A stretch of DNA of 64,000 nucleotides from Pseudomonas hormoni. GTDB lineage: Bacteria; Pseudomonadota; Gammaproteobacteria; Pseudomonadales; Pseudomonadaceae. The position numbers and the translations under genes are program-made. Positions 8,769 to 22,427 of this stretch are shown piece by piece. How positions within the stretch are numbered: the first letter of the stretch is position 1; each line of letters opens with the position of its first letter. The notes below the pieces were generated by a model that was given only the letters and a program-made list of their open reading frames with translations, was not told the DNA's origin and did no database searches. The stretch lies in contig NZ_CP075566.1 in assembly GCF_018502625.1 (NCBI RefSeq), forward strand, positions 687,001 to 751,000. The letters run 5' to 3'.

Positions 8769-10382
8769 TCAGGCTTCGAGGCCGAGGATGTCGCGAGCAA
8801 CGGCTTCGGCGATGCGGATCCCGTCCACACCTGCCGACAGAATCCCGCCCGCATAACCCGCGCCTTCGCCCGCCGGGAACAAGCCCTTCACGTTCAAACT
8901 CTGCATCGACTCGTTACGGGTAATCCGCAGCGGCGACGATGTACGCGTCTCGATCCCGGTCAACACAGCGTCATGCAGCGAATAACCACGAATCTGCTTC
9001 TCGAACGCCGGCAAGGCTTCGCGAATGGCTTCGATGGCGAACGCCGGCAAGGCCAGCGCCAAATCACCCAGCGCAACCCCGGGCTTGTAGGACGGTTCAA
9101 CACTGCCCAGCTCGGTGGACGGTTTACCCGCGATGAAATCGCCAACCAACTGAGCTGGCGCTTCATAGTTGCTGCCGCCCAGCACAAAGGCGTGGGATTC
9201 CAGGCGTTCCTGCAACTCGATACCGGCCAGCGGACCGCCCGGGTAATCCACTTCCGGGGTGATGCCGACGACGATCCCGGAGTTGGCGTTGCGCTCGTTA
9301 CGTGAATACTGGCTCATGCCGTTGGTCACGACGCGATTCGGCTCGGACGTCGCCGCGACCACGGTGCCGCCCGGGCACATGCAGAAGCTGTAGACCGAGC
9401 GGCCGTTCTTGGCGTGGTGCACCAGCTTGTAGTCGGCAGCCCCGAGTTTCGGGTGGCCGGCGTATTTGCCCAGGCGTGCGCGGTCGATCAGCGACTGCGG
9501 GTGCTCGATGCGGAAACCCACCGAGAACGGCTTGGCTTCCATGAACACACCGCGACCGTGGAGCATGCGGAAGGTGTCGCGGGCGCTGTGGCCGAGGGCC
9601 AGAATCACGTGTTTCGAATGGATCTGCTCGCCGCCGTTGAGCTCGACGCCGACCAGTTGGCCGTCCTCGATCAACACGTCGGTGACGCGCTGCTGGAAGC
9701 GCACTTCGCCGCCCAGGGCGCGAATCTGCTCACGCATGTTTTCCACAACGCCGGTCAGACGGAACGTACCGATGTGCGGTTTGCTGACGTAGAGGATTTC
9801 TTCCGGCGCGCCGGCTTTTACGAATTCATGCAGGACTTTGCGACCGATGAATTTCGGGTCCTTGATCTGGCTGTAGAGCTTGCCGTCGGAGAACGTCCCC
9901 GCGCCACCTTCACCAAATTGCACGTTGGACTCGGGGTTGAGCACGCTTTTACGCCACAGACCCCAGGTGTCCTTGGTGCGCTGACGCACTTCGGTGCCGC
10001 GTTCGAGGATGATCGGCTTGAAGCCCATCTGCGCCAGCAGCAGCCCGGCGAAAATCCCGCACGGACCGAAACCGACCACGACCGGGCGTTGTTCGAGATC
10101 GGCCGGCGCCTGGCCGACCACTTTGTAGCTGACATCCGGCGCTACGTTGACGTTACGGTCATCGGTGAACTTGTGCAGCAACGCCGCCTCATCCTTGGCG
10201 GTGAGGTCGATGGTGTAGATGAAGCACAGTTCGGAAGACTTTTTGCGCGCATCGTAGCTGCGCTTGAACAAGGTGAAATCGAGCAGGTCATCACTGGCGA
10301 TGCCCAGGCGCTGCAGGATGGCAGGGCGCAGGTCTTCTTCGGGATGGTCGATCGGCAGCTTGAGTTCGGTGATTCGTAACAT
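8769..10382 (-). CDS. FAD-dependent oxidoreductase (COG2509-type NAD(P)/FAD protein)
   Basis: 537 residues from ATG 10382. An N-terminal ~90-residue alpha/beta domain (MLRITELKLPIDHPEEDL...) precedes a Rossmann FAD site, VVVGFGPCGIFAGLLLA, with GFGPCG at 104-109 and the acidic strand end IILERG. Further on are the EGAGYAGGI...DGIRIAEAVA elements typical of flavoproteins at the C-terminus. This domain order defines the COG2509 'uncharacterised FAD-dependent dehydrogenase' group; the substrate is unknown. Monocistronic as far as can be seen. Confidence 0.85.
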   Translation of the reverse strand: MLRITELKLPIDHPEEDLRPAILQRLGIASDDLLDFTLFKRSYDARKKSSELCFIYTIDLTAKDEAALLHKFTDDRNVNVAPDVSYKVVGQAPADLEQRPVVVGFGPCGIFAGLLLAQMGFKPIILERGTEVRQRTKDTWGLWRKSVLNPESNVQFGEGGAGTFSDGKLYSQIKDPKFIGRKVLHEFVKAGAPEEILYVSKPHIGTFRLTGVVENMREQIRALGGEVRFQQRVTDVLIEDGQLVGVELNGGEQIHSKHVILALGHSARDTFRMLHGRGVFMEAKPFSVGFRIEHPQSLIDRARLGKYAGHPKLGAADYKLVHHAKNGRSVYSFCMCPGGTVVAATSEPNRVVTNGMSQYSRNERNANSGIVVGITPEVDYPGGPLAGIELQERLESHAFVLGGSNYEAPAQLVGDFIAGKPSTELGSVEPSYKPGVALGDLALALPAFAIEAIREALPAFEKQIRGYSLHDAVLTGIETRTSSPLRITRNESMQSLNVKGLFPAGEGAGYAGGILSAGVDGIRIAEAVARDILGLEA

Positions 10383-10477
10383 GACAGGATCCGGTTCGCG
10401 GGGCGCACAACTGCGCCAAGGCGTTTGAAGCCCGCGATTATAAGCCTCAAAGAACAATTCCCGTGAGGCTTAAACGA

Positions 10478-11131
10478 TCAGTCGTCGCGCGATCCGCCGA
10501 AATACCCGCAGCCACGTTGAACCTGGCCATCGATGCGCAATTCGGCGCTCATGTGCTGGACGCTGTCGGTGCTGCTGTCGACGCAACGTTGCGGCGCGAC
10601 CCACAGTTCGATGTGCTGGTTGTTGGCTTCGGTGCTGAGGTTGAAGCGGCCGTCGCCCAGTTGCTCTTCAACGTAAGGTACGGCCAGGGGCGGTTGACCC
10701 GCACGGTCGATGACCATGCCTTTGCCGCTGACCTTGACGTTCCACTCCGGGCCGTGGCCGGCGGCGCGCAGGATCAGCAGTTTGAAATTCGGATCGCCGC
10801 AGGCGGTGCCCGAGCGCTCGACGCGGTATAGCTGTTCCAGATCGAGGCGGCTGTCGACGATCCGCCCGCGCACGTCGGCGAACAGTTTGCCCTGGGCATC
10901 GGCGAGGGTCGCGAACTCTTGCAGAACGCTGGTGCCACCGGTGTCCTTGACCACGTAACTGCGTTGCTCATTGCATGGCTGGAACAACAGCTTGCCGTCG
11001 GCCGCCGTCAGCTGGCCCTGCATTCGGGTCTGGCCCACGTGGGAAGCACTTTCACGCGGGCCATCCAGCAACTGGCAAGCGGCGAACAACGGAAGCAGGG
11101 CAACAAGGACTAAGGAACGGGCAACACGCAT
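10478..11131 (-). CDS. Lipoprotein, COG3650-like
   Basis: 217 residues from ATG 11131 (GGAGAG 6 bases upstream). Lipoprotein signal with lipobox LFAAC, Cys19. The mature part contains two repeated beta-type segments, each with a Cys-containing PCNEQ.../CGDPNFKLLI-like element, ending in a glycine-rich CGYFGG motif. This resembles the COG3650 'predicted membrane protein' family, which has no established function. Transcribed with the same polarity as the FAD oxidoreductase but 95 bp apart. Confidence 0.7.
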   Translation of the reverse strand: MRVARSLVLVALLPLFAACQLLDGPRESASHVGQTRMQGQLTAADGKLLFQPCNEQRSYVVKDTGGTSVLQEFATLADAQGKLFADVRGRIVDSRLDLEQLYRVERSGTACGDPNFKLLILRAAGHGPEWNVKVSGKGMVIDRAGQPPLAVPYVEEQLGDGRFNLSTEANNQHIELWVAPQRCVDSSTDSVQHMSAELRIDGQVQRGCGYFGGSRDD

Positions 11132-11190
11132 CTTTGGCTCTCCAGACAAGTGCCGCCACGTTACTCAGCCTGACCGTTCATCACAAGGGC

Positions 11191-11790
11191 TCAACCCACA
11201 TGAAAGGTCTGGCCTGTCTGCAGGCCTTCCACGCTTTTGGCGTAGGCCAGTGCCACATCGGCTGCCGGAACCGGTTTGTAGCCGCGGAAGTACGGCGCGT
11301 ATTTGCCCATGGCTTCGAGCAATACGTTAGGGCTCACCGAGTTCACTCGCAGGCCGCGCGGCAGTTCGATCGCCGCGGCACGCACGAAGCTGTCGAGGGC
11401 GCCGTTGACCAGTGCTGCCGAGGCACCGCTGCGGATCGGATCGTGACTGAGTACGCCGGTGGTGAAGGTGAACGAGGCGCCGTCGTTGGCGAATTCGCGG
11501 CCGATCAGCAGCAGGTTGACCTGGCCCATCAGCTTGTCTTTCAGACCCAGGGCGAAACTGTCTTCGGTCATTTCGCCCAGCGGGGCGAAGGTTACGTTGC
11601 CCGCAGCGCAGACCAGCGCGTCGAACTTGCCGGTCTGTTCGAACAGTTTGCGAATCGAGGCGCTGTCGCTGATATCCACATGGAAATCGCCGCTGTTGCG
11701 ACCGATGCGGATGATCTCGTGACGCTCGGACAATTCCTTGTCGATCGCTGAACCGATGGTGCCGCCTGCGCCTATCAAAAGAACTTTCAT
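11191..11790 (-). CDS. Short-chain dehydrogenase-like protein lacking the YxxxK catalytic pair
   Basis: 199 residues from ATG 11790. Rossmann start MKVLLIGAGGTIGSAI (G7-G13) and the CAAG motif (NNAG equivalent, 61-64) identify an SDR. At the position of the catalytic Tyr-x3-Lys the sequence reads A125...N129 (SGASAALVNGALDSF), so neither catalytic residue is present. It may bind NAD(P) without classical SDR chemistry, or use another mechanism. It is divergent from the LysR gene at 11896, which is a likely local regulator. Confidence 0.85.
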   Translation of the reverse strand: MKVLLIGAGGTIGSAIDKELSERHEIIRIGRNSGDFHVDISDSASIRKLFEQTGKFDALVCAAGNVTFAPLGEMTEDSFALGLKDKLMGQVNLLLIGREFANDGASFTFTTGVLSHDPIRSGASAALVNGALDSFVRAAAIELPRGLRVNSVSPNVLLEAMGKYAPYFRGYKPVPAADVALAYAKSVEGLQTGQTFHVG

Positions 11791-11895
11791 GCTGTTGAAC
11801 CTCGTGTGTGTTGAAAGTGGCTTCAGTCTAGAGTGGTTTTTTCTGCGGATAAGCGCGCTAATAGGCAACCTTTGGTTTTCAAATGGAAACAATCC

Positions 11896-12804
11896 ATGAG
11901 CGAGATGGATGATCTGGCGGCGTTCGCCGTGTTGATCGAAGCAGGCAGTTTCACCCTGGCGGCGCAGCAGTTGGGTTGCAGCAAAGGGCAGTTGTCCAAG
12001 CGTATCAGCCTGCTCGAGACGCGGTTTTCCGTGGTGCTGCTGCAACGCACCACGCGCCGCTTGAGCCTGACGGCGGCGGGGGCGGCGCTCTTGCCGCAAG
12101 CTCAGGCGCTGGTGGTACAAGTGGAAAGGGCGCGTCAGGCATTGGCGCGGTTGAAGGATGACATGGCCGGGCCGGTGCGTATGACGGTTCCGGTATCCCT
12201 GGGAGAAACCTTCTTCGATGGCTTGTTGTTGGAGTTTTCCCACAAGTATCCCGAAGTGCAGATTGAGCTCGACCTCAGCAACAACTATCGTGATTTGTCC
12301 CGCGACGGTTTCGATCTGGCGGTTCGCTCCGACGTCAGCAATGACGAGCGTCTGGTGGCCCGGCCACTATTGGCCTGGCACGAGATGACCTGTGCCAGCC
12401 CGGACTACCTTGAGCAATACGGCGAACCGTTGACACCGCAGGCCCTCGCGGAACACCGCTGTTTACTCAACAGCCACTACAGCGGTCGCGAAGAATGGCT
12501 TTATCACCAGCAACACGAGTTGTTGCGGATTCGGGTGTCGGGACCCTTCGCCAGCAACCATTACAGCCTGCTGAAGAAAGCGGCGCTGGCCGGTGCCGGT
12601 ATTGCGCGTTTGCCGTCCTACTTGCTGCAAATGGAATTGGCTGACGGGCGTTTGCGCTGGCTCCTGCGCGACTATCAGACGCGTCGCATGCCGATGTACC
12701 TGGTGCATCCGTATCAGGGCGGGCTGCCGAAACGCACGCAGGTGCTGGCGGATTATTTGATTGGTTGGTTCAAGCGCAGTGGGGAGGCGCTGGACCGGCT
12801 GTAA
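11896..12804 (+). CDS. LysR-family transcriptional regulator
   Basis: 302 residues. N-terminal winged HTH (FAVLIEAGSFTLAAQQLGCSKGQLSKRISLLETRF) and a C-terminal substrate-binding domain of the aromatic/CrgA-like group. ATG 11896 is used; an upstream in-frame start at 11833 would add residues outside the family N-terminus. It reads away from the SDR-like gene with ~105 bp between starts, the classic LysR arrangement, so control of that gene is likely but not shown. A REPIN follows. Confidence 0.9.
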   Translation: MSEMDDLAAFAVLIEAGSFTLAAQQLGCSKGQLSKRISLLETRFSVVLLQRTTRRLSLTAAGAALLPQAQALVVQVERARQALARLKDDMAGPVRMTVPVSLGETFFDGLLLEFSHKYPEVQIELDLSNNYRDLSRDGFDLAVRSDVSNDERLVARPLLAWHEMTCASPDYLEQYGEPLTPQALAEHRCLLNSHYSGREEWLYHQQHELLRIRVSGPFASNHYSLLKKAALAGAGIARLPSYLLQMELADGRLRWLLRDYQTRRMPMYLVHPYQGGLPKRTQVLADYLIGWFKRSGEALDRL

Positions 12805-12827
12805 CGATAATGTCTGCCTCACACAGA

Positions 12828-12925
12828 CCCTGTGGGAGCGGGCTTGCCCGCGATAGCGGTTTTACATTCGAACTGAGATGTTGACTGGACTAGCGCTTTC
12901 GCGGGCAAGCCCGCTCCCACAAGGA
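12828..12925. repeat. REPIN (inverted REP pair)
   Basis: Arms CCTGTGGGAGCGGGCTTGCC (from 12829) and its near-perfect inverse ending GGCAAGCCCGCTCCCACAAGG, with a ~50-bp spacer. It sits between convergent genes. Confidence 0.9.
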
Positions 12926-13000: not shown

Positions 13001-13702
13001 TCAACCACCGAGGTACGCTTCGCGCACTTTCGGGTCGGTCAGCAGCGCTTCGCCGGTGCCTTGCATCACCACCCGGCCGTTCTCCAGAACGTACGCGCGG
13101 TCAGCGATTTTCAGTGCCTGGTTGGCGTTCTGTTCCACCAGGAACACCGTCACGCCATCCTTGCGCAGCTGCTCGATGATGTCGAAGATCTGCTGGATGA
13201 TGATCGGTGCCAGGCCCAACGATGGCTCGTCGAGCAGCAGCAGCTTGGGCTTGCTCATCAGCGCACGGCCGATGGCGAGCATTTGCTGTTCGCCGCCGGA
13301 CATGGTGCCGCCGCGCTGATTGAAGCGCTCTTTCAGGCGTGGGAAAAGTCCGAGGACCTTGTCCATCTGCTCCTGGTAATCGCCCTTTTCAGTGAAGAAA
13401 CCACCCATGGAGAGGTTTTCTTCCACGGTCAGGCGAGCAAACACCCGACGACCTTCCGGCACGACGGCGATGCTCTTGCGCATGATCTGCGACGAGCTCT
13501 GGCCGACGAGCTCTTCGCCCATGTAGCGGATGCTGCCGCTGTGGGCTTGCGGCGAACCGCAGAGGGTCATCAGCAGGGTCGACTTGCCGGCGCCGTTGGC
13601 ACCGATCAGGGTCACGATCTCGCCCTGACGGACTTCGACGTTGACACTGTGCAGGGCCTGGATCTTGCCGTAGAAGGTGGAAACGTTTTCGAATTGCAGC
13701 AT
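13001..13702 (-). CDS. livF: Branched-chain amino acid ABC transporter ATPase LivF (BraG)
   Basis: 233 residues, one of two ATPases powering high-affinity import of Leu/Ile/Val. Walker A GANGAGKST (34-42), ABC signature MSGGEQQML, Walker B LLLLDEPSLGL, and the H-loop equivalent at FLVEQN, as in LivF. It is the last gene of livHMGF; its ATG directly follows the livG stop, so translation is coupled. A terminator follows. Confidence 0.96.
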   Translation of the reverse strand: MLQFENVSTFYGKIQALHSVNVEVRQGEIVTLIGANGAGKSTLLMTLCGSPQAHSGSIRYMGEELVGQSSSQIMRKSIAVVPEGRRVFARLTVEENLSMGGFFTEKGDYQEQMDKVLGLFPRLKERFNQRGGTMSGGEQQMLAIGRALMSKPKLLLLDEPSLGLAPIIIQQIFDIIEQLRKDGVTVFLVEQNANQALKIADRAYVLENGRVVMQGTGEALLTDPKVREAYLGG

Positions 13703-14470
13703 TTACGCTTCCCCCAGGTAGGCTTTGATCACTTCAGGATTGTCGCGGATCTGTTCCGGCGTGCCGTCGGCCAGAGGCGTGCCCTGGTTGATCACGACGA
13801 TGTGGTCGGAAATGCTCATGACCAGCTTCATGTCGTGTTCGATCAGCAGCACGGTGACGTTGTGCTCTTCGCGCAACATGCTGATCAGCGCCTTGAGGTC
13901 CTCGGTTTCCTTCGGGTTCAGGCCGGCGGCCGGTTCGTCGAGCATGAGGATCCGCGGGCGGGTCATCATGCAGCGGGCGATTTCCAGACGACGTTGCTGA
14001 CCGTAGGCCAGGGTGCCGGCCGGACGGTTGGCGAACGCCTTGAGGTTGACCTTGTCCAGCCAGTACTCGGCGAACTCCATGGCCTCGCGTTCGCTTTTGC
14101 GGAAGCCCGGGGTCTTGAACAGGCCTGCCAGGAAGTTGGTGTTCAGGTGACGGTGCTGGGCGATCAAGAGGTTCTCGACCGCGGTCATGTCCTTGAACAA
14201 CCGCACGTTCTGGAAGGTGCGCACCACGCCTTTGAGTGCGATCTTGTGGCCGGGCAGGCCTTCGATAGCCTCGCCGTCCAGCAGGATGCTGCCACCGCTC
14301 GGTTTGTAGAAACCGGTCAGGCAGTTGAACACGGTGGTCTTGCCGGCGCCGTTGGGGCCGATCAGTGCCACGACCTGTTTCTCTTTCACGCTCAGGGCTA
14401 CGCCGTTGACCGCCAGCAAGCCGCCGAAGCGCATGCTCAGATTGTCTACTTTAAGGATCTCGCGGCTCAT
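13703..14470 (-). CDS. livG: Branched-chain amino acid ABC transporter ATPase LivG (BraF)
   Basis: 255 residues. Walker [10 protein letters not shown] (38-46), signature [15 protein letters not shown], Walker [14 protein letters not shown], and the C-terminal extension [15 protein letters not shown] characteristic of LivG-type ATPases. It overlaps livM by 4 bp at its start and abuts livF, fixing its place in the operon. It pairs with LivF on the cytosolic face of LivHM. Confidence 0.96.
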
Positions 14471-15723
14471 TTGCGCAGCTCCATGTGGGGGCGTTGCATA
14501 GGCAGCAGACCTTGAGGACGCCAGATCATCATCAGCACCATCAATGCGCCGAACATCAACATGCGGTATTCACTGAACTCACGCATCATTTCCGGCAACA
14601 GGATCATCACCGTGGCGGCGAGTACGACACCCAGTTGCGAGCCCATGCCACCCAGCACCACGATGGCGAGGATGGTCGCCGACTCGATGAAGGTGAAGGA
14701 TTCCGGCGTCACCAGGCCCTGACGCGCGGCGAAGAAGCTGCCGGCGAAACCGGCGAAGCACGCACCGAGGGTGAACGCTGAAAGCTTGATTGCCGTCGGA
14801 TTCAGACCCAACGCACGGCAGGCGATTTCGTCTTCACGCAACGCTTCCCAGGCGCGGCCCAGGGGCATGCGCAGCAAGCGGTTGATGACGAACAGTGCGA
14901 ACAACGACAACAACACCGCGATCAGGTAAAGGAAAATCACCTTGTTCACTGGGTTGTAGGCCAGACCGAAATACTCGTGGAAGGTCTGCAGACCCTCTGC
15001 GGCGGTTTTATCGAAGGTCAACCCGAAAAGCGTTGGCTTGGGAATGTTGCTGATGCCGTTCGGGCCACCGGTGAGGTCGGTCAGGTTACGCAGGAACAAA
15101 CGGATGATTTCACCGAAGCCCAGGGTCACGATCGCCAGGTAGTCACCGCGCAGGCGCAGTACCGGGAAGCCGAGCAGGAAGCCGAAAGTGGCCGCCATCA
15201 GGCCGGCGATAGGCAGGCAGATCCAGAAGCTCAAGCCGTAGTAGTGCGACAACAGCGCGTAGCTGTAGGCGCCGACGGCGTAGAAACCGACGTAACCGAG
15301 GTCGAGCAGGCCGGCCAGACCGACCACGATGTTCAGGCCGAGGCCGAGCATCACGTAGATCAGCACCAGGGTGGCGATATCCACCGCGCCGCGAGAGCCG
15401 AAGAACGGCCAGACCAGCGCGCCGATGATCAACGCGATGATGATCCAGCGCTGGGTGGTCGGCAGGGTCAGGAACGTACTGGCCTTGGCCGGCATCACCG
15501 GCATGTTGGGCGAGGATTTCCAGGCCGCGCTGATTTGCTGGTCGAACAGTACCCGCAAGAACATCAGCACCGAGCACACGGCGATGGTGATCAGCGTTGC
15601 AGTGCTGGTGCCATGGACTTCGAGGTTGATGCCGACAATGGTCAATTTCAGACCGAGTACCGGGTAGGCAACGGCCCACACCAGCAAGGCGCTGAACAAC
15701 GCCTGTTTAAGATTCCTAGTCAT
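14467..15723 (-). CDS. livM: Branched-chain amino acid ABC transporter permease LivM (BraE)
   Basis: 418 residues with about 10 membrane segments. The N-terminal ~100 residues (two segments and a hydrophilic loop) match the extra domain (DUF3382 type) found in gammaproteobacterial LivM, ahead of the BPD_transp_2 permease core. Coupling sequence [29 protein letters not shown], the EAA-like loop, is clear. Its start overlaps the livH stop and its stop overlaps the livG start, each by 4 bp. Confidence 0.96.
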
Positions 15724-16643
15724 ACTTTCTCAACCTCCGGACGGCCCAACAGGCCGGTTGGCCGGAACAACAACACCAGAACCAATAGGCCGAACGCCAC
15801 GACGTCCTTGTACTGGTCGCCGAAGATATCGGCACCAAAGGCTTCCGCCACCCCCAGCACGATCCCGCCGAGCATGGCGCCGGGGATGCTGCCGATACCG
15901 CCCAGTACCGCTGCGGTGAAGGCCTTGAGGCCGACCAGGAAACCGGCGTTCGGGTTGATCACGCCGTATTGCATGCTCAGCAGCACGGCTGCGATGGCCG
16001 CCAGTGCGGCACCGACGACGAAGGTCAGGGCGATGATGTTGTTGGTGTTGATACCCAGCAGGTTGGCCATCTTGATGTCTTCGGCACAGGCGCGGCAGGC
16101 GCGACCCAGGCGAGAGCGGGAGATGAACAGCGTCAGGCCGAGCATGGCGACCAGCGTCACCACGAACACCACGATTTGCATGTAGGAAATCAGCACTTCT
16201 TGTGCGCCACCTGGCCCGATGGCGAAGTTGCCGGGGATCAGGTTGGGGATGGATTTGTCCTTGGAGTCTTGCGCCAGCAGAACCGTGTTCTGCAGGAAGA
16301 TCGACATGCCGATGGCGGAAATCAGCGGGATCAGACGGTTGCTGCCGCGCAAGGGGCGGTAGGCGATCCGTTCGATACTGTAACCGTAGGCACTGGTCAC
16401 GACGATGGTCGCGAGGAAAGCGGCGGTCATCAACAGCGGAACACTGTCGAGTCCCATCATGGACAGGCCCGCAATGGCGATGAACGCCACATAGGAGCCG
16501 ATCATGTACACCTCGCCGTGGGCGAAGTTGATCATTCCAATGATGCCGTAAACCATCGTATAGCCGATGGCGATCAGGGCATACGTGCTGCCAATGGTCA
16601 GACCATTAACCAGCTGTTGGAAGAAGTGATAGATGTCAGGCAT
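15720..16643 (-). CDS. livH: Branched-chain amino acid ABC transporter permease LivH (BraD)
   Basis: 307 residues, hydrophobic throughout, BPD_transp_2 family. Contains the signature [11 protein letters not shown] near residue 40 and the EAA-like loop [22 protein letters not shown]. It is the first gene of the livHMGF unit and is preceded by a ~230-bp gap that contains the terminator of livK, so the permease/ATPase genes can be expressed at a lower level than the binding protein. AGGAG lies ahead of the ATG. Confidence 0.96.
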
Positions 16644-16823
16644 TACAGCGCTCCTAAAAACCTGATACGCATTTCACTGGTGGAGTCATTTTCCCGCTCG
16701 AGCCCCGTGGATCTGCATCCACTTCGAACGCGAGGTTTGCCAGCGAACCGCTGATGACGGTTTTGAGATTTTCAGGTGGGAAGACTGGCGGATCACACCA
16801 GCGCGGCCCAATACGTTCGTAAA

Positions 16824-16854
16824 ACAAAGCCCACGGCACGCCGTGGGCTTTATT
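16824..16854 (-). terminator. Terminator/attenuator between livK and livHMGF
   Basis: Stem AAAGCCCACGGC...GCCGTGGGCTTT, a strong hairpin followed on the minus strand by T-rich sequence, 22 bp after the livK stop. It is placed to reduce read-through into the transporter genes. Confidence 0.85.
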
Positions 16855-16875
16855 GGCAGTCAGTCAGGCAGGGCC

Positions 16876-18003
16876 TTACTGAGGCGAAGCTTCAGTTTTA
16901 GGTTTGCCGAAGTGCCACTCGTAAACCACAAATTTGAAGTCTTTCAGGTCGCCCTTGGCGTCGAAGCTCAGGTCGCCGGTAGGCGTCTTGAAGGTGCCTG
17001 CGTGGATGGCAGCAGCCACTTTGGCAGTGTCTTCGGACTTGGCAGCCTTGATGCCGTCAGCGATCACTTCCACAGCCGAGTAGGCCGGGAACACGAACGG
17101 ACCGCTCGGGTCTTCTTTCTTCGCTTTGAATGCGTCAGCCAGAGCAACGTTGGCTGGATCCTGGTCGAAGGATTTCGGCAGGGTTACCAGCAGACCTTCG
17201 GAAGCGTCTTTGGCGATCTGCGAAATCGAGTCGTTACCCACGCCTTCCGGACCCATGAACTTGGCTTTCAGGCCTTTTTCCTGGGATTGACGCAGGATCA
17301 GACCCAGCTCCGGGTGGTAGCCGCCGTAGTAGACGAAGTCGACGTTGGCTTGCTTGAGCTTGGAGATCATCGAAGAGAAGTCCTTGTCGCCGGCATTGAT
17401 GCCTTCGAACACGGCAACCTTGACGCCTTTGCCTTCCAGGGTTTTCTTCACGGCGGTGGCGATGCCTTCACCGTATTGCTGTTTGTCGTGCAGAACAGCA
17501 ACGATTTTCGGTTTTACGTGATCGGCAATGTAGTTACCGGCGGCAGGGCCCTGGGCGCTGTCCAGACCGATGGTGCGGAACACCATTTTGTAACCACGGT
17601 TGGTGATGTCCGGGCTGGTGGCAGCCGGGGTGATCATGATCACGCCTTCGTCTTCGTAGATGTCCGAAGCCGGTTGAGTGGAGCTGGAGCACAGGTGACC
17701 GACCACGAACTTGACGCCGTCGTTGACGACCTTGTTCGCGACCGCCACAGCTTGTTTTGGATCACAGGCGTCATCGTATTCAACGGCTTCGAGTTTCTTG
17801 CCGTCTACGCCGCCCTTGGCGTTGATCTGTTCGATGGCCATTTTGGCGCCACTGAACTGCATGTCGCCGTATTGGGCTACAGGACCGGTTTTAGGGCCGG
17901 CGATGCCGATCTTGATGGTGTCAGCTGCGAACGAATGGCTGGCAACCCCGGCCAGAACCATAGCGGCAAACAGTTTGGAAATCTGCTTAGTAGCCTTAGT
18001 CAT
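16876..18003 (-). CDS. livK: Branched-chain amino acid periplasmic binding protein (LivK/BraC)
   Basis: 375 residues, type I periplasmic binding fold. Signal peptide 1-26 ending SHSFA before ADTIKIG. Mature protein contains the conserved pair of cysteines around DDACDPKQA...GHLCSSSTQ, which form a disulfide in LivJ/LivK/BraC, and the ligand-site SSTQPAS segment. It captures Leu/Ile/Val (BraC also Ala/Thr) and docks on LivHMGF encoded downstream. A perfect palindrome lies 100 bp upstream of the start. Confidence 0.95.
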   Translation of the reverse strand: MTKATKQISKLFAAMVLAGVASHSFAADTIKIGIAGPKTGPVAQYGDMQFSGAKMAIEQINAKGGVDGKKLEAVEYDDACDPKQAVAVANKVVNDGVKFVVGHLCSSSTQPASDIYEDEGVIMITPAATSPDITNRGYKMVFRTIGLDSAQGPAAGNYIADHVKPKIVAVLHDKQQYGEGIATAVKKTLEGKGVKVAVFEGINAGDKDFSSMISKLKQANVDFVYYGGYHPELGLILRQSQEKGLKAKFMGPEGVGNDSISQIAKDASEGLLVTLPKSFDQDPANVALADAFKAKKEDPSGPFVFPAYSAVEVIADGIKAAKSEDTAKVAAAIHAGTFKTPTGDLSFDAKGDLKDFKFVVYEWHFGKPKTEASPQ

Positions 18004-18342: not shown

Positions 18343-18648
18343 ATGACTCAAGAACCTAGCACCCTCTATGCCAAGCTGCTTGGTGAAACCGCATCTATTA
18401 CCTGGAAGGAGCTGGAGCCGTTCTTCGCCAAGGGTGCCCTATTGTGGGTCGATCCCGGTCTGGATTTGATCGCGGCGGCCGAGGCCGTGGCGACGGACGA
18501 AGGCGAGAAAGTGGCTGCCTGGCTGGCCGCCGACGAGGTCGCCAAGCTGTCTGAAACGCGGGCGCTGGATCTTTTTGAACGCGATCCGGAGTTGTGGGCA
18601 GTGGTCGTTTCGCCGTGGATTCTGATCCAGGAAAGGGCGACGAAGTGA
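18343..18648 (+). CDS. DUF2288 family protein
   Basis: 101 residues, soluble and acidic. The pattern TLYAKLLGETASITWKELEPFFAKGALLWVDPGLDLIAAA matches the DUF2288 family of small proteobacterial proteins of unknown function. ATG 18343 follows AGGACCC. It is alone; a hairpin AGCAGCC-gat-GGCTGCT at 18786-18803 with T-rich 3' side may be its distal terminator. Confidence 0.8.
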   Translation: MTQEPSTLYAKLLGETASITWKELEPFFAKGALLWVDPGLDLIAAAEAVATDEGEKVAAWLAADEVAKLSETRALDLFERDPELWAVVVSPWILIQERATK

Positions 18649-18854: not shown

Positions 18855-18952
18855 CTCATCGCGGGCAAGCCCGCTCCCACAGGTTCAGTGACGTTCATGA
18901 ATTTTGTGCACGACACGGACACTGTGGGAGCGGGCTTGCCCGCGATGGGATC
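18855..18952. repeat. REPIN in the gap between the DUF2288 and tubulin-like genes
   Basis: Inverted pair: ATCGCGGGCAAGCCCGCTCC (from 18858) and ACTGTGGGAGCGGGCTTGCC (from 18921). The rest of the 318-bp gap holds only the hairpin at 18786-18803. Confidence 0.9.
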
Positions 18953-18966
18953 GACGCGGTTTTCAA

Positions 18967-21168
18967 TCAGACCGAGAACGTCTTGCCCGTGTGGTTATTC
19001 AGCGAAATAACCTTGGTCTTGCCAATCCGGTGACGGTAGATCTCGCGCAGGTACTTGATCGCCTTCTTCACGCAATCGCGCGACAGGCGAATGTCATTGA
19101 TCGAGACGAACTTGTCCTTGTCATTGATCAGCTCGCGGTACTTCTTCTCGTACATCGGTTTAATCGCGTACCAGTTGGTATCGAGGATCTTCGCCGGGTT
19201 TTCGAACTCGTTGAGCAAGTCGTCGATCAGGTCTTCGTCGAAGTCTTCATTGATGATGAAGTCCAGGATCGAGTTATCCAGCGTGTCGTCGAAGCGGTAC
19301 GGGTTCTTCGCGAAGCAGCGCTTGATGAACGCGACGATCAGCGTCAGGAAATCGTCCGACAGGCACGGGCTCTTGGCGATCAACGTGGTCAGCGACAGGT
19401 TGGCCGACGCGCCGATCACCAGCGCATAGCGCTTGAGCGTGGTGTTCGGGAACAGGCTGTTGAGGTGGGTCTTCAACCGGTTCAGGTCCATGTAGGACAG
19501 CTTGTAGTCTTTCGGCAAGGACACGATCGAGACCACCGACGAGCAGTTCTTGAAGAAGTGCAGGTCGTGCAACGCGGCCGCGTCATATCCGGAATTCTTG
19601 TACTGCTCCAGCGACGCCCGATAGCGCTTGGATTCGATCGGCAACAGGCTGATGCCTTCGATGGCCTGGGTGACTTTGTTGAAGTGCGGCAGGTCGATGG
19701 AGCGGAAGAACAGGTCGTCGATGTTCAGGCGCTGCGGTTCTTTTTCGAACACCTTGAACTTGTCGCTGCTCGGCGGCGGCGTTTCCGGCACCACGGATTC
19801 GGCGTAGGCAATCGCCACGGGGCCGGCCAGGCTCATGAACAAGTCGTTGGCGTCGAGGCGAATGGTTTCGCCGATGTCGATGCCGGCGCGACGGAAATAG
19901 TTCTGGTCGTAGTCAGTCGTGACCGCCTGCGCCGTCAGAATGTTGAAGATCTGCTGCGAGATGTACTGGTTGGCGTGCTTTTCCATCGCGTTGACGTCGA
20001 TGTTCTGGATGTTGCCGTCATCGCTTTCTTCGGCATAACGCATGATGTCGTTGGAGATCAGCATCATGGCGTTCCATGGGCGGATACGGCCCATGACGCT
20101 GGCTTCGCTGCTGTCTTCATTGGCGAAGTTGTAGGAGAAGTCCCACTCTTCCGACAGGTATTTGCACAGCAGGCGACCGGCGTTGATGTGCAGCGCCTCG
20201 GACATTTCACTGCGGTGATCGGAAATGTTCGGCAGTACGCAAATGCCGCTGGTGAAGATCGGCTCGAAGACGAAGGAATGACCGCTCTTGCCGTCATGCT
20301 CGTCCATCGGTTTGGTGTCGAACGTCTTGTTCATGTACGAGTGCTGCTGGGCCAGGCCGAACTCCGACGCCATGCCCGAACCGGTACCGCCGCCGGCACT
20401 GAAGATCGAGAAATACAGGCGCGACTGGTTGGCCTTGATGCCGCAGCTGTCGATCAGGTACGAGTGAATCATCTTCCAGTCAGGGCTGGAGAAACGCTGG
20501 GTGTCCTTGTTCAGGATGATCTTGGCCAGGTACTGGCCGAGGATCGGCGCGTTACCGGCGCCACCGGCGTGGACTTCCGACAAGTCCATGATTTTCATTT
20601 TGCTGTAGTCGCGCAGGAAGCCGCTTTTTTCGCCCTTGCGCGAGAAACGGATGCGACCGGCGATGTCTTTGTCCAGGTCGCCGAGCATGACCAGCGGCTC
20701 GACCAAAAACACCGGTTTAGTGGCTTTGTTCGGCCCCAGGCGCAGGTTGTTGCGGATCCACTGGGCCGGGCTGTAACCCTTTTCGGCGTAGCGTTTGTCC
20801 GGCGACAGGCGGTCTTCGTTGTTGAATTCGTTGAGGTAGAACTTGCGCGCGTTGTACACCAGCTCCGCGACGTCCAGCGCAATGTTCGAGCCGCAGCGAC
20901 CAAGGCCGATCAGGCACACCGACGGGAATTCCTGATCGCTGTGCTGTTCGTTATCGCCTTCCAGGTGCGGCGGGCGCGGGAACACCAGATCGCGCAGGCC
21001 GTCGAGGTTATCGAGGATGCGGTCCGTGTTGGTTTCGGTGAAATACAGGTATTGCTGAGTCGCCAGCGGGCGCGACGGCGTCAATGGCTTCGACGTTGCG
21101 GGGCTGTTCGCCGCGGGGCTCAGCGTCAGATCGGATATCGCAGTGGCCGGATTGTTTTTGGAAGTCAT
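18967..21168 (-). CDS. Tubulin/FtsZ-superfamily GTPase-like protein, uncharacterised
   Basis: 733 residues; not FtsZ itself. After an ~80-residue Ser/Pro/Thr-rich leader come the FtsZ-fold loops in order: T1 LIGLGRCGSN (86-95), T3 AGGAGN (201-206, cf. FtsZ GAGGNP), T4 SAGGGTGSG (257-265, the tubulin signature), a guanine-contact strand MMLISND (N373), H7 Asn in KHANQYI (N400), and a T7-like RLDANDL (437-443) whose D439-x2-D442 matches the FtsZ D209/D212 catalytic pair. This suggests GTP binding and polymerisation-triggered hydrolysis. About 290 residues follow with no family I recognise. Monocistronic; no partner gene adjacent. Closest known relatives are probably the FtsZ-like (FtsZl) and Tubulin_2 groups. 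Confidence 0.8.
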   Translation of the reverse strand: MTSKNNPATAISDLTLSPAANSPATSKPLTPSRPLATQQYLYFTETNTDRILDNLDGLRDLVFPRPPHLEGDNEQHSDQEFPSVCLIGLGRCGSNIALDVAELVYNARKFYLNEFNNEDRLSPDKRYAEKGYSPAQWIRNNLRLGPNKATKPVFLVEPLVMLGDLDKDIAGRIRFSRKGEKSGFLRDYSKMKIMDLSEVHAGGAGNAPILGQYLAKIILNKDTQRFSSPDWKMIHSYLIDSCGIKANQSRLYFSIFSAGGGTGSGMASEFGLAQQHSYMNKTFDTKPMDEHDGKSGHSFVFEPIFTSGICVLPNISDHRSEMSEALHINAGRLLCKYLSEEWDFSYNFANEDSSEASVMGRIRPWNAMMLISNDIMRYAEESDDGNIQNIDVNAMEKHANQYISQQIFNILTAQAVTTDYDQNYFRRAGIDIGETIRLDANDLFMSLAGPVAIAYAESVVPETPPPSSDKFKVFEKEPQRLNIDDLFFRSIDLPHFNKVTQAIEGISLLPIESKRYRASLEQYKNSGYDAAALHDLHFFKNCSSVVSIVSLPKDYKLSYMDLNRLKTHLNSLFPNTTLKRYALVIGASANLSLTTLIAKSPCLSDDFLTLIVAFIKRCFAKNPYRFDDTLDNSILDFIINEDFDEDLIDDLLNEFENPAKILDTNWYAIKPMYEKKYRELINDKDKFVSINDIRLSRDCVKKAIKYLREIYRHRIGKTKVISLNNHTGKTFSV

Positions 21169-21365
21169 TGTGCGCCATGTACCTGGGCTGGTCGGTCGGG
21201 CGACTGCTGTCGTCGAACCGTCACGGATGGGTTCTCGCGTCTTTTTTCAGCGCGTCATTGGCCCAAGCGTCAGGGGGTTGGCCTGAGCATCACTCGGGGG
21301 AATCCTTTCCTTAGTCATGATGAATCGGCCAATATTTGGCGATCTTTAATCGAAAAGAAGGCCAA

Positions 21366-22261
21366 ATGATGTCAACCCTACCTTCGTTGGGTTTTGCCGG
21401 GATCGGCCTGATGGGTTTGCCGATGTGCCAACGCCTGCTGGCAGCGGGTTATCCGCTGACGGTGTGGAACCGTAACCCGGCCAAGTGCGCGCCGCTGGTC
21501 GAGGCGGGCGCGCGACACGTCGCCACGCCTGCCGAGCTGTGCCAGCACGCCGATGTGCTGATGTTGTGTCTGGCGGATACGGCTGTGGTGCGCGAGGTGG
21601 TGTTTGGTCCGGGCGGGATTGTCGAGGGTGGGAAAAGCGGCCAGCTGCTGGTGGATTTTTCCAGCCTGGAACCCACCGCGACGCGGGAAATGTCGGCGCA
21701 GCTGGCCAGCCAGACCGGCATGAGCTGGCTGGACGCTCCGGTGTCCGGCGGTGTTGTCGGCGCCGAGGCCGGTAGCCTGGCCATCATGGTGGGCGGCGAA
21801 GTGGCGGACCTTGAGCGTGTCAGGTCTGTTCTGCTCAGCCTCGGTCAGCGCGTCACCCATATGGGCGCGGTCGGGGCGGGGCAGGTGACCAAGGTGTGTA
21901 ATCAGATGATTGTCGCCTGCAATGCCCTGGTCATCGCCGAAGTGGTGGCGCTGGCCGAGCGTTCCGGTGTGCAGGCCAGCCTGATCGCCGAAGCCCTGGC
22001 GGGCGGTTTTGCCGATTCCAAACCGTTGCAGATCCTCGCCCCGCAAATGGCCGAAAGCCGCTTCGAGCCCGTGAAGTGGCACGTGCGCACGCTGCTCAAG
22101 GACCTCGACACTGCGGTGAAATTTTCCCGTGAACAGGTTCGGCCACGCCCGTCAGCGGATTGGCCGCACAACTGATGCGCCTGCATGGGAGTCAGGGCTA
22201 TTTGCAAAAGGACCCGTCAACGTTAGTGCAGTTGTACCGCGAGCCAGACTCAAAGGGTTGA
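21366..22261 (+). pseudogene. Beta-hydroxyacid dehydrogenase (2-hydroxy-3-oxopropionate reductase family), frameshifted near the 3' end
   Basis: N-terminal Rossmann motif GFAGIGLMGLPMCQRLL and the substrate-site signature DAPVSGGVVGAEAGSLAIMVGG place it in the 3-hydroxyisobutyrate/tartronate-semialdehyde reductase family; the catalytic Lys is in GQVTKVCNQMIV. The original frame reads normally to FSREQ, then stops at 22175 (269 aa from ATG 21366) with an aberrant tail. Adding one base at about 22137 (GGTT for GTT) restores GSATPVSGLAAQLMRLHGSQ and onward to a stop at 22261, the expected family end. So a single-base deletion (or read error) removes the last ~40 residues. ATG 21369 is an equally possible start. 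Confidence 0.85.
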
Positions 22262-22427
22262 AGGCGCGCGCGTGTTTGCGCTGGAGCAGGTAGCCCTGCA
22301 CGAAATCGCAGCCGTTACCCTCGAGAAACGCGAATTGCTCGGGGGTTTCGACGCCTTCGGTGATCACCTGTAAATGCAGGGTGTGGGCAATGACGATGAT
22401 CGCGCTCTGGAGTATAGAGGCCGTGCA
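22240..22427 (-). pseudogene. Remnant of an EAL-domain (c-di-GMP phosphodiesterase) gene
   Basis: Minus-strand frame from 22427 reads SILQSAIIVIAHTLHLQVIT, then EGVETPEQFAFLEGNGCDF and VQGYLLQRK. This is the C-terminal third of an EAL domain, including the EGVET motif and the QGYL end. An in-frame stop lies directly upstream and no EAL motif, start or first half is present. It is a decayed fragment lying against the end of the frameshifted dehydrogenase. No other gene is seen from 22428 to 22497. Confidence 0.8.

Follow-up and report, generated by a model that had tools for sequence, protein, structure and literature searches.

A conserved gene of Pseudomonas hormoni taken to encode FtsZl2, a putative divergent GTPase of the tubulin/FtsZ superfamily

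What might a second gene with the tubulin signature do in a bacterium that already carries ftsZ? The question is raised by a stretch of 64,000 nucleotides of the Pseudomonas hormoni genome (contig NZ_CP075566.1, positions 687,001 to 751,000; hereafter the window), in which an intact open reading frame (ORF) of 733 codons, with an ATG start and a TGA stop, occupies positions 18967-21168. An earlier reading of the sequence (the original prediction) had described the product as an uncharacterised tubulin/FtsZ-like cytoskeletal GTPase with a large extra C-terminal domain, and had not given the strand, which we determined to be minus. We take the gene to be ftsZl2, of a family in print since 2010. 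Our preferred explanation, which we regard as probable, is that FtsZl2 is a divergent GTPase of the tubulin/FtsZ superfamily that forms head-to-tail filaments and serves as an accessory spatial organiser outside cell division.

The gene and its conserved motifs

The length of 733 residues and the position of every motif named in the original prediction were borne out (Table 1), and the homologues among the matches listed were 689-754 residues long. In six pairwise comparisons with relatives within Pseudomonas, the ratio of non-synonymous to synonymous substitutions (dN/dS) of ftsZl2 was 0.018-0.124; the RapA-like helicase gene in its neighbourhood gave 0.026-0.092 and BraC 0.095-0.133. Purifying selection acts on ftsZl2 to a degree similar to that on the helicase gene. 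Since dN/dS is low and the motifs are retained in relatives down to about 55% identity, the ORF and its motifs are beyond chance.

Motif residues were tallied, L89 and R91 excepted, in an alignment of 120 sequences, made up of residues 38-724 of the window protein and 119 homologues thinned at 94% identity. Identical in 120/120 were G88, G90, C92-N95, A201-G203, G205, N206, G259-G265, N373, N400 and D439. The exceptions were A204 (A in 105 sequences, S in 15) and D442 (D in 119 and one gap). The FtsZ of the same genome has DFAD at T7, and the DAND of ftsZl2 shows an equal D-x-x-D spacing. Of the full set of GTP-binding motifs that had been claimed, all residues are thus present, but the role of N373 as the T6 guanine contact was not borne out in one block alignment, the T6 asparagine of FtsZ being paired there with N400 (see below). 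A degenerate codon pattern for GGGTG(S/T)G occurs at two sites in the genome, ftsZl2 and ftsZ. Because the same pattern read backwards, used as a control, has 5 sites, this count is no evidence against chance and shows only that there is no third candidate.

FtsZl2 was found by Makarova and Koonin in 2010 by searching RefSeq for GGGTG(S/T)G (PMC2875224). According to the main text of that paper, the type member is PFL_1302 of P. fluorescens Pf-5 and the family is present in several other Proteobacteria, to which phylum it is limited, in genomes that also carry FtsZ; no associated genes are reported there. The features described are motifs T1, T4, T6, T7 and H7, additional segments inserted between T1 and T4, and a C-terminal region of about 300 residues, of mixed alpha/beta structure, without a coiled coil and without known relatives. 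HHpred gave E = 0.0033 for the type member, and the authors, replying to a reviewer, rate the formation of filaments as a confident prediction, an expectation shared by the second filament system proposed in the original prediction. The legend of their Figure 1 includes a Marinomonas sequence, its family unstated.

The window protein has the GGGTG(S/T)G signature, the T1, T4 and T7 motifs and the inserts between T1 and T4. We therefore assigned it to FtsZl2 on the motif count, the genus and the published description rather than on the sequence of PFL_1302. The label 'uncharacterised' accordingly holds for the function and not for the family, which, C-terminal region included, has been in print since 2010. 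Judged by titles, no experimental study of FtsZl2 was found among the matches listed from the open-licence literature, and among the matches listed there for the family name PFL_1302 is named only in PMC2875224. As the family has been published and the gene is well conserved and clearly used, this is a known puzzle and not a new one.

Relationship to tubulin and FtsZ

Sub-threshold Pfam matches to tubulin are common in the family. Among 59 family members, at E ≤ 0.1, Tubulin (PF00091) was found in 58 (best E 3.1e-5) and Tubulin_2 (PF13809) in 49 (best 5.2e-4); DUF6562 was matched by 25 and MIF4G by 2. The window protein itself matched Tubulin at E 0.0035, Tubulin_2 at E 0.0055 and MIF4G at E 0.0061. 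A full-length profile alignment (hhalign) of the family with 31 FtsZ sequences paired T3 and T4 in order, GAGNAPILG of ftsZl2 lying opposite GAGANPEVG of FtsZ. This single comparison gave E 0.010 in one direction and 0.0022 in the other, at an hhalign probability of only 4% and 13%. When profile blocks were compared with FtsZ one by one, each against 100 column shuffles and a reversed control, block 355-460 scored 20.3, higher than any shuffle (maximum 20.0) and than its reversed control (14.3), and placed T7 on T7.

Other results weigh against the relationship. The matches of the window protein reached 18.1 bits for Tubulin, where the cut-off is 33, and 16.4 bits for Tubulin_2, where it is 27; the best of ten relatives scanned (24.8 bits) likewise stayed below the gathering cut-off of PF00091. 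At E ≤ 0.05 seven of these ten matched Tubulin and one matched nothing at all, and the best stretch of the seven matches was T4 alone in six and T1 in one. In the block-wise comparison, the T1 block was in register with FtsZ T1, yet its score was at noise level (37/100 shuffles as high). The T3+T4 block scored 23.1 (1/100 as high), below its own reversed control (25.1), and block 185-250 scored 18.4 (0/100) but was placed on FtsZ T1, not T3. Blocks 295-350 and 390-460 (H7-T7 alone) were noise, with 46 and 77 of 100 shuffles as high, as was the C-terminal region against the FtsZ profile. Within block 355-460, the T6 asparagine of FtsZ fell on N400 and not on N373. Among the checks proposed in the original prediction were an alignment and a structure prediction. 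The alignment placed T4 on T4 (full length) and T7 on T7 (block 355-460), the other blocks being noise, misplaced or outscored by the reversed control. AlphaFold, run twice, gave no confident fold (mean predicted local distance difference test score (pLDDT) 43.4 and 48.2, both poor), and Foldseek with the second model found no match at E ≤ 0.001.

No sequence relative of the window protein was found in the PDB at E ≤ 1; a profile query of the PDB returned only four ribosomal chains (E 0.42-1.7), and the sole NCBIfam match, YhgE/Pip at E 0.089, was taken as chance. Because both models are poor, the fold lacks independent support, and with such weak fold tests the relationship to tubulin rests on the signature motif, the invariant motifs in order and the published analysis. 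The tubulin/FtsZ relationship put forward in the original prediction is thus favoured by the signature, the ordered motifs, the sub-threshold Tubulin matches in 58/59 and the HHpred match of 2010, and supported neither by the poor structure models nor by one block alignment, in which T6 falls on N400. On this evidence the product of ftsZl2 is very probably a distant relative of tubulin.

The extra length is spread over the protein. In the FtsZ of the same genome (397 residues) T1 is at 18, T4 at 106, the T6 asparagine is 166 and the T7 aspartate 210; the corresponding landmarks of the window protein are 88, 259, N373 and D439. Of the 336 residues in excess, about 70 lie before T1, 83 between T1 and T4 (171 residues apart, against 88 in FtsZ), 54 between T4 and N373, 22 from N373 to D439, and 107 beyond D439, so that about 159 extra residues lie between T1 and T7, within the GTPase core. 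A figure of about 290 extra C-terminal residues had been given; 294 residues follow the T7 aspartate here and 187 in the genome's own FtsZ, which reduces it to about 107. Judged by this landmark spacing, the 'large extra C-terminal domain' accounts for about one third of the excess and most of the remainder is inside the core.

The C-terminal region is conserved, the mean share of the commonest residue in the 120-sequence alignment being 0.81-0.91 over residues 481-620 and 0.88 over 658-724; the secondary structure of the residues past D439 is known only from the low-confidence models. An FtsZ-type activation domain at 542-601, suggested by a strand-helix-strand order seen by eye, was rejected as unsupported, its profile score (12.1) being noise (200 shuffles: median 12.8, maximum 22.2; reversed 18.9). 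Among stretches of 18 residues, 693-710 is the most amphipathic, as determined in one sequence and without a control, and we claim no membrane anchor. With a maximum 19-residue mean hydropathy of 1.40, no transmembrane stretch stands out.

Neighbouring genes and distribution

Canonical ftsZ lies at 4.59 Mb in the same genome, beside an ORF which we take to be ftsA, and ftsZl2 lies at 0.706 Mb. The earlier statement that the gene is far from any division gene therefore holds for the dcw cluster. The ftsA neighbour and the length of about 400 residues expected of a division FtsZ are found with the 397-residue FtsZ, not with ftsZl2.

Within the window, a small gene (18343-18648) is convergent with ftsZl2, and beyond it lies an operon (13001-18003) presumably for branched-chain amino-acid transport (bra). 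A dehydrogenase-like gene (21336-22175) is divergent from ftsZl2. The names bra, BraC, RapA, ftsA and sucCD are used here as presumptive labels. Directly past the stop codon of ftsZl2 we observed a 25-base inverted pair (18857-18881 and 18923-18947), which we presume to be REP-like; its 22-base core is present in two copies in each orientation within the window.

We compared 101 neighbourhoods, nearly all of close Pseudomonas. A BraC-like gene was found within six genes in 96 of them. In 88, GGDEF and EAL motifs were found in a gene upstream on the same strand, two genes away in 80 and adjacent in 8; the other 13 had no such gene in the stretch. The only one of these genes scanned with Pfam, that of L150, encodes MHYT, GGDEF and EAL domains. 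In g299, taken as Marinomonas, 8/12 neighbourhoods had an adjacent same-strand gene of 1016-1037 codons, five times downstream and three times upstream of ftsZl2, and the two scanned were of ammonium transporter-PAS-GGDEF-EAL type. G092 has a PAS-GGDEF-EAL gene two genes downstream, and G1099, taken as Corallincola, has an adjacent TPR-GGDEF gene.

Of 22 lineages, which are our own grouping, 4 had a same-strand GGDEF gene no more than two genes away, against 0.51 expected (P = 0.0015, post hoc); without the strand condition the expectation was 1.01 (P = 0.017, post hoc). Within one gene on the same strand, 3 were observed and 0.26 expected (P 0.0021), a count that took in the main Pseudomonas lineage although the gene is adjacent in only 8/88 of its neighbourhoods. 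Expectations were derived from counts in representative genomes (5-62 matches in each of 24), assuming 0.9 genes per kb. In six of the 55 gene-bearing neighbourhoods (L130, L212, L213, L248, L267 and L268) the contig ends so close to ftsZl2 that, on one side, one or both of the two nearest genes are missing. The neighbours of ftsZl2 thus vary between lineages, yet there is a GGDEF excess, seen post hoc, in 4/22.

Two findings count against reading a functional link into this excess: 18 of the 22 lineages have no GGDEF gene within two genes, and in the window genome the GGDEF-EAL neighbour has been lost while ftsZl2 is intact. What is left at 22155..22403 is the remnant of a gene that is common beside ftsZl2 in related Pseudomonas and may be its functional neighbour there. 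Because the link was chosen after seeing the data, the GGDEF family is very large and 18/22 lineages are without the neighbour, a connection with cyclic diguanylate (c-di-GMP) is kept only as a lead. Among the literature matches listed, 'FtsZ-like' and c-di-GMP occur together only in PMC2875224, where c-di-GMP belongs to a reviewer's remark on FtsZl1.

Some further observations concern the neighbours. Over 21336-22240, the dehydrogenase-like gene follows a relative up to residue 262 in one frame, and residues 258-292 are matched in a different frame; given this change of frame the 3' end differs, at a site adjoining the GGDEF-EAL remnant. GGDEF genes were seen farther off in L129 (seven genes away) and in L266 (three away, on the other strand). 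Chemoreceptor (MCP) genes adjoin ftsZl2 in g599 (L248) and g313 (L266), and in g599 (L246) a PilZ gene lies two genes upstream. In g614 the 3' end of ftsZl2 is overlapped by a same-strand ORF of 333 residues (L251:8073-9074), which had no Pfam match at E 1e-4.

Table 1. Coordinates of ftsZl2, its motifs and associated features (window positions unless a neighbourhood is named)
Feature	Position	Strand	Remark
ftsZl2 gene	18967..21168	-	733 codons + TGA, ATG start; Met 1 invariant in 17-sequence alignment
Variable, probably disordered leader (residues 1-40)	21049..21168	-	weak conservation, variable length; pLDDT <50 over 1-52, model poor throughout
T1 nucleotide loop GLGRCGSN (residues 88-95)	20884..20907	-	88, 90 and 92-95 invariant in 120
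T3-like AGGAGN (residues 201-206)	20551..20568	-	invariant but for A204 (A/S)
T4 tubulin signature GGGTGSG (residues 259-265)	20374..20394	-	invariant in 120
N373, proposed T6 guanine contact	20050..20052	-	invariant in 120; assigned from motif only
N400, proposed H7 residue	19969..19971	-	invariant in 120; assigned from motif only
T7-like DAND (residues 439-442)	19843..19854	-	D439 120/120, D442 119/120 and one gap
C-terminal region (residues 443-733)	18967..19842	-	conserved; no Pfam domain above cut-off
GGDEF-EAL gene remnant, ~94 C-terminal residues	22155..22403	-	tblastn over the window with L150 MHYT-GGDEF-EAL: residues 666-759, 46% identity, E 5e-13
MCP genes	L248:6713-8632 and 11400-12878; L266:11426-13051	same as ftsZl2	

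The distribution of ftsZl2 was determined in overlapping genome samples, all drawn within the phylum. A match was found in 27/36 genomes of the genus, 28/57 relatives, 20/341 genomes of the order (threshold E 0.1), 31/345 of the order of G787, 2/369 drawn over the class (own genome included) and 9/398 over the phylum. The sources named among the matches listed (best 120 of 667, best 120 of 647 and best 120 of 651 hits) included Pseudomonas, Rheinheimera, Arsukibacterium, Alkalimonas, Cellvibrio, Marinomonas, Celerinatantimonas, Agarivorans, Aliagarivorans and Corallincola. The gene is patchy within Gammaproteobacteria. It is broken in G787, into pieces with stops and an unrelated stretch in between, and G1200 has only two short pieces, one with stops. 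In G787 the decayed gene (L143, approximately 8880-11730) has unrelated ORFs of 210 and 77 residues between its pieces and lies beside genes that look like sucCD.

Possible role and comparison with known systems

Our best guess is a GTP-driven filament that does not serve division; fold, GTPase activity, polymerisation and role are what we infer for it. In one subunit, loops T1, T3 and T4 would enclose GTP, and the T7 aspartates D439 and D442 of the next would complete the site and trigger hydrolysis. Subunits would then join head to tail into dynamic filaments, which the inserts and the C-terminal region may tether to something else. FtsZl2 would not take over the division task of FtsZ. Most likely it would act as an accessory spatial organiser that Gammaproteobacteria can do without, perhaps holding proteins of the envelope or of c-di-GMP signalling in position. 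The more specific proposal of a cytoskeletal scaffold for c-di-GMP signalling, in which GTP-driven filaments position, or are regulated by, membrane-bound GGDEF-EAL enzymes (the MHYT type in Pseudomonas, the ammonium-transporter-fused type in Marinomonas), is a long shot. If true, it would connect the control of motility and biofilm by a second messenger with a relative of tubulin in bacteria. The neighbour lead is a first concrete testable point on FtsZl2. Since the gene is selected like the RapA-like helicase gene and many Pseudomonas carry it, it should be easy to delete cleanly and to fuse to a fluorescent protein.

Other explanations were weighed against the same evidence. FtsZ requires its T7 D-x-x-D pair for hydrolysis across the subunit interface, and retention of such a pair in 119/120 sequences (and one gap) speaks against a GTP switch that descends from tubulin without polymerising, as do the filaments expected for FtsZl2 by the 2010 authors (PMC2875224, in the reply cited above). 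Such a switch, a regulated GTPase or scaffold monomer whose inserts block the longitudinal contacts, would nonetheless suit the roughly 159 extra residues inside the T1-T7 core and the conserved C-terminal region; we consider it unlikely. An auxiliary or conditional division protein working with FtsZ appears improbable. The two proteins would share a superfamily and their genes do share a genome, but no division gene was recognised by eye among the neighbours inspected, not all of which were annotated, and ftsZl2 is missing in 9/36 genomes of the genus and broken in G787.

That GGGTGSG and the other motifs arose by convergence on a non-tubulin fold would agree with the lack of an acceptable structure model (AlphaFold, Foldseek) or of a PDB relative at E ≤ 1 with the protein (the profile finding only the ribosomal chains), and with the weak block-wise scores. 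This is opposed by the invariant motifs in order, the T7 spacing, the fact that no Pfam entries match the family more often than Tubulin and Tubulin_2, and the HHpred match published in 2010 (PMC2875224); we hold it to be very improbable. A filament of a mobile element, moving plasmid or phage DNA in the manner of TubZ or PhuZ, was suggested by the phage or DNA-related task raised in the original prediction. TubZ-type proteins are tubulin relatives too, but that task gained no support. At E 1e-5, none of 72,556 records of plasmids or 50,697 of phages gave a match (near relatives of the window genome were possibly excluded there), none of 86 candidate stretches in viral contigs was confirmed, and the BraC-like gene lies within six genes in 96/101 neighbourhoods, nearly all of close Pseudomonas. 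This reading is strongly disfavoured. A defence or phage family was likewise rejected, PADLOC and PHROGs both giving no match at E ≤ 1.

Returning to the non-division filament, three known systems can be compared with the window protein. FtsZ shares with it motifs T1, T3, T4 and T7 in order and the D-x-x-D spacing of T7; it differs in that the genome's own FtsZ scores 169 bits with PF00091 at 397 residues, whereas the window protein scores 18 bits at 733 and stands alone. FtsZl1 (PF13809, Tubulin_2) is also a divergent FtsZ-like GTPase with the T4 signature, and sub-threshold Tubulin_2 matches occur in 49/59 members of the present family. However, PMC2875224 describes FtsZl1, in the passages on that family, as having a coiled coil and sharing operons with genes for vWA, kinase, GTPase and OmpA-like proteins, none of which was recognised by eye among the neighbours of ftsZl2. 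PF13809 had no match at E ≤ 0.001 in 100 genomes, this one included, and the relevant passages of a 2023 study (PMC9871819) set the Tubulin_2 'FtsZ-like' group apart from FtsZ/tubulin proper. From the description of FtsZl2 in the main text of PMC2875224, by contrast, no difference was found; the alignments did not confirm T6 and H7. The window protein agrees with it in the genus Pseudomonas, the GGGTG(S/T)G signature, motifs T1, T4 and T7, the long stretch between T1 and T4, the C-terminal region of about 300 residues, the presence of FtsZ in the same genome and the variable company of its gene, which, the post hoc GGDEF excess aside, has no constant partner.

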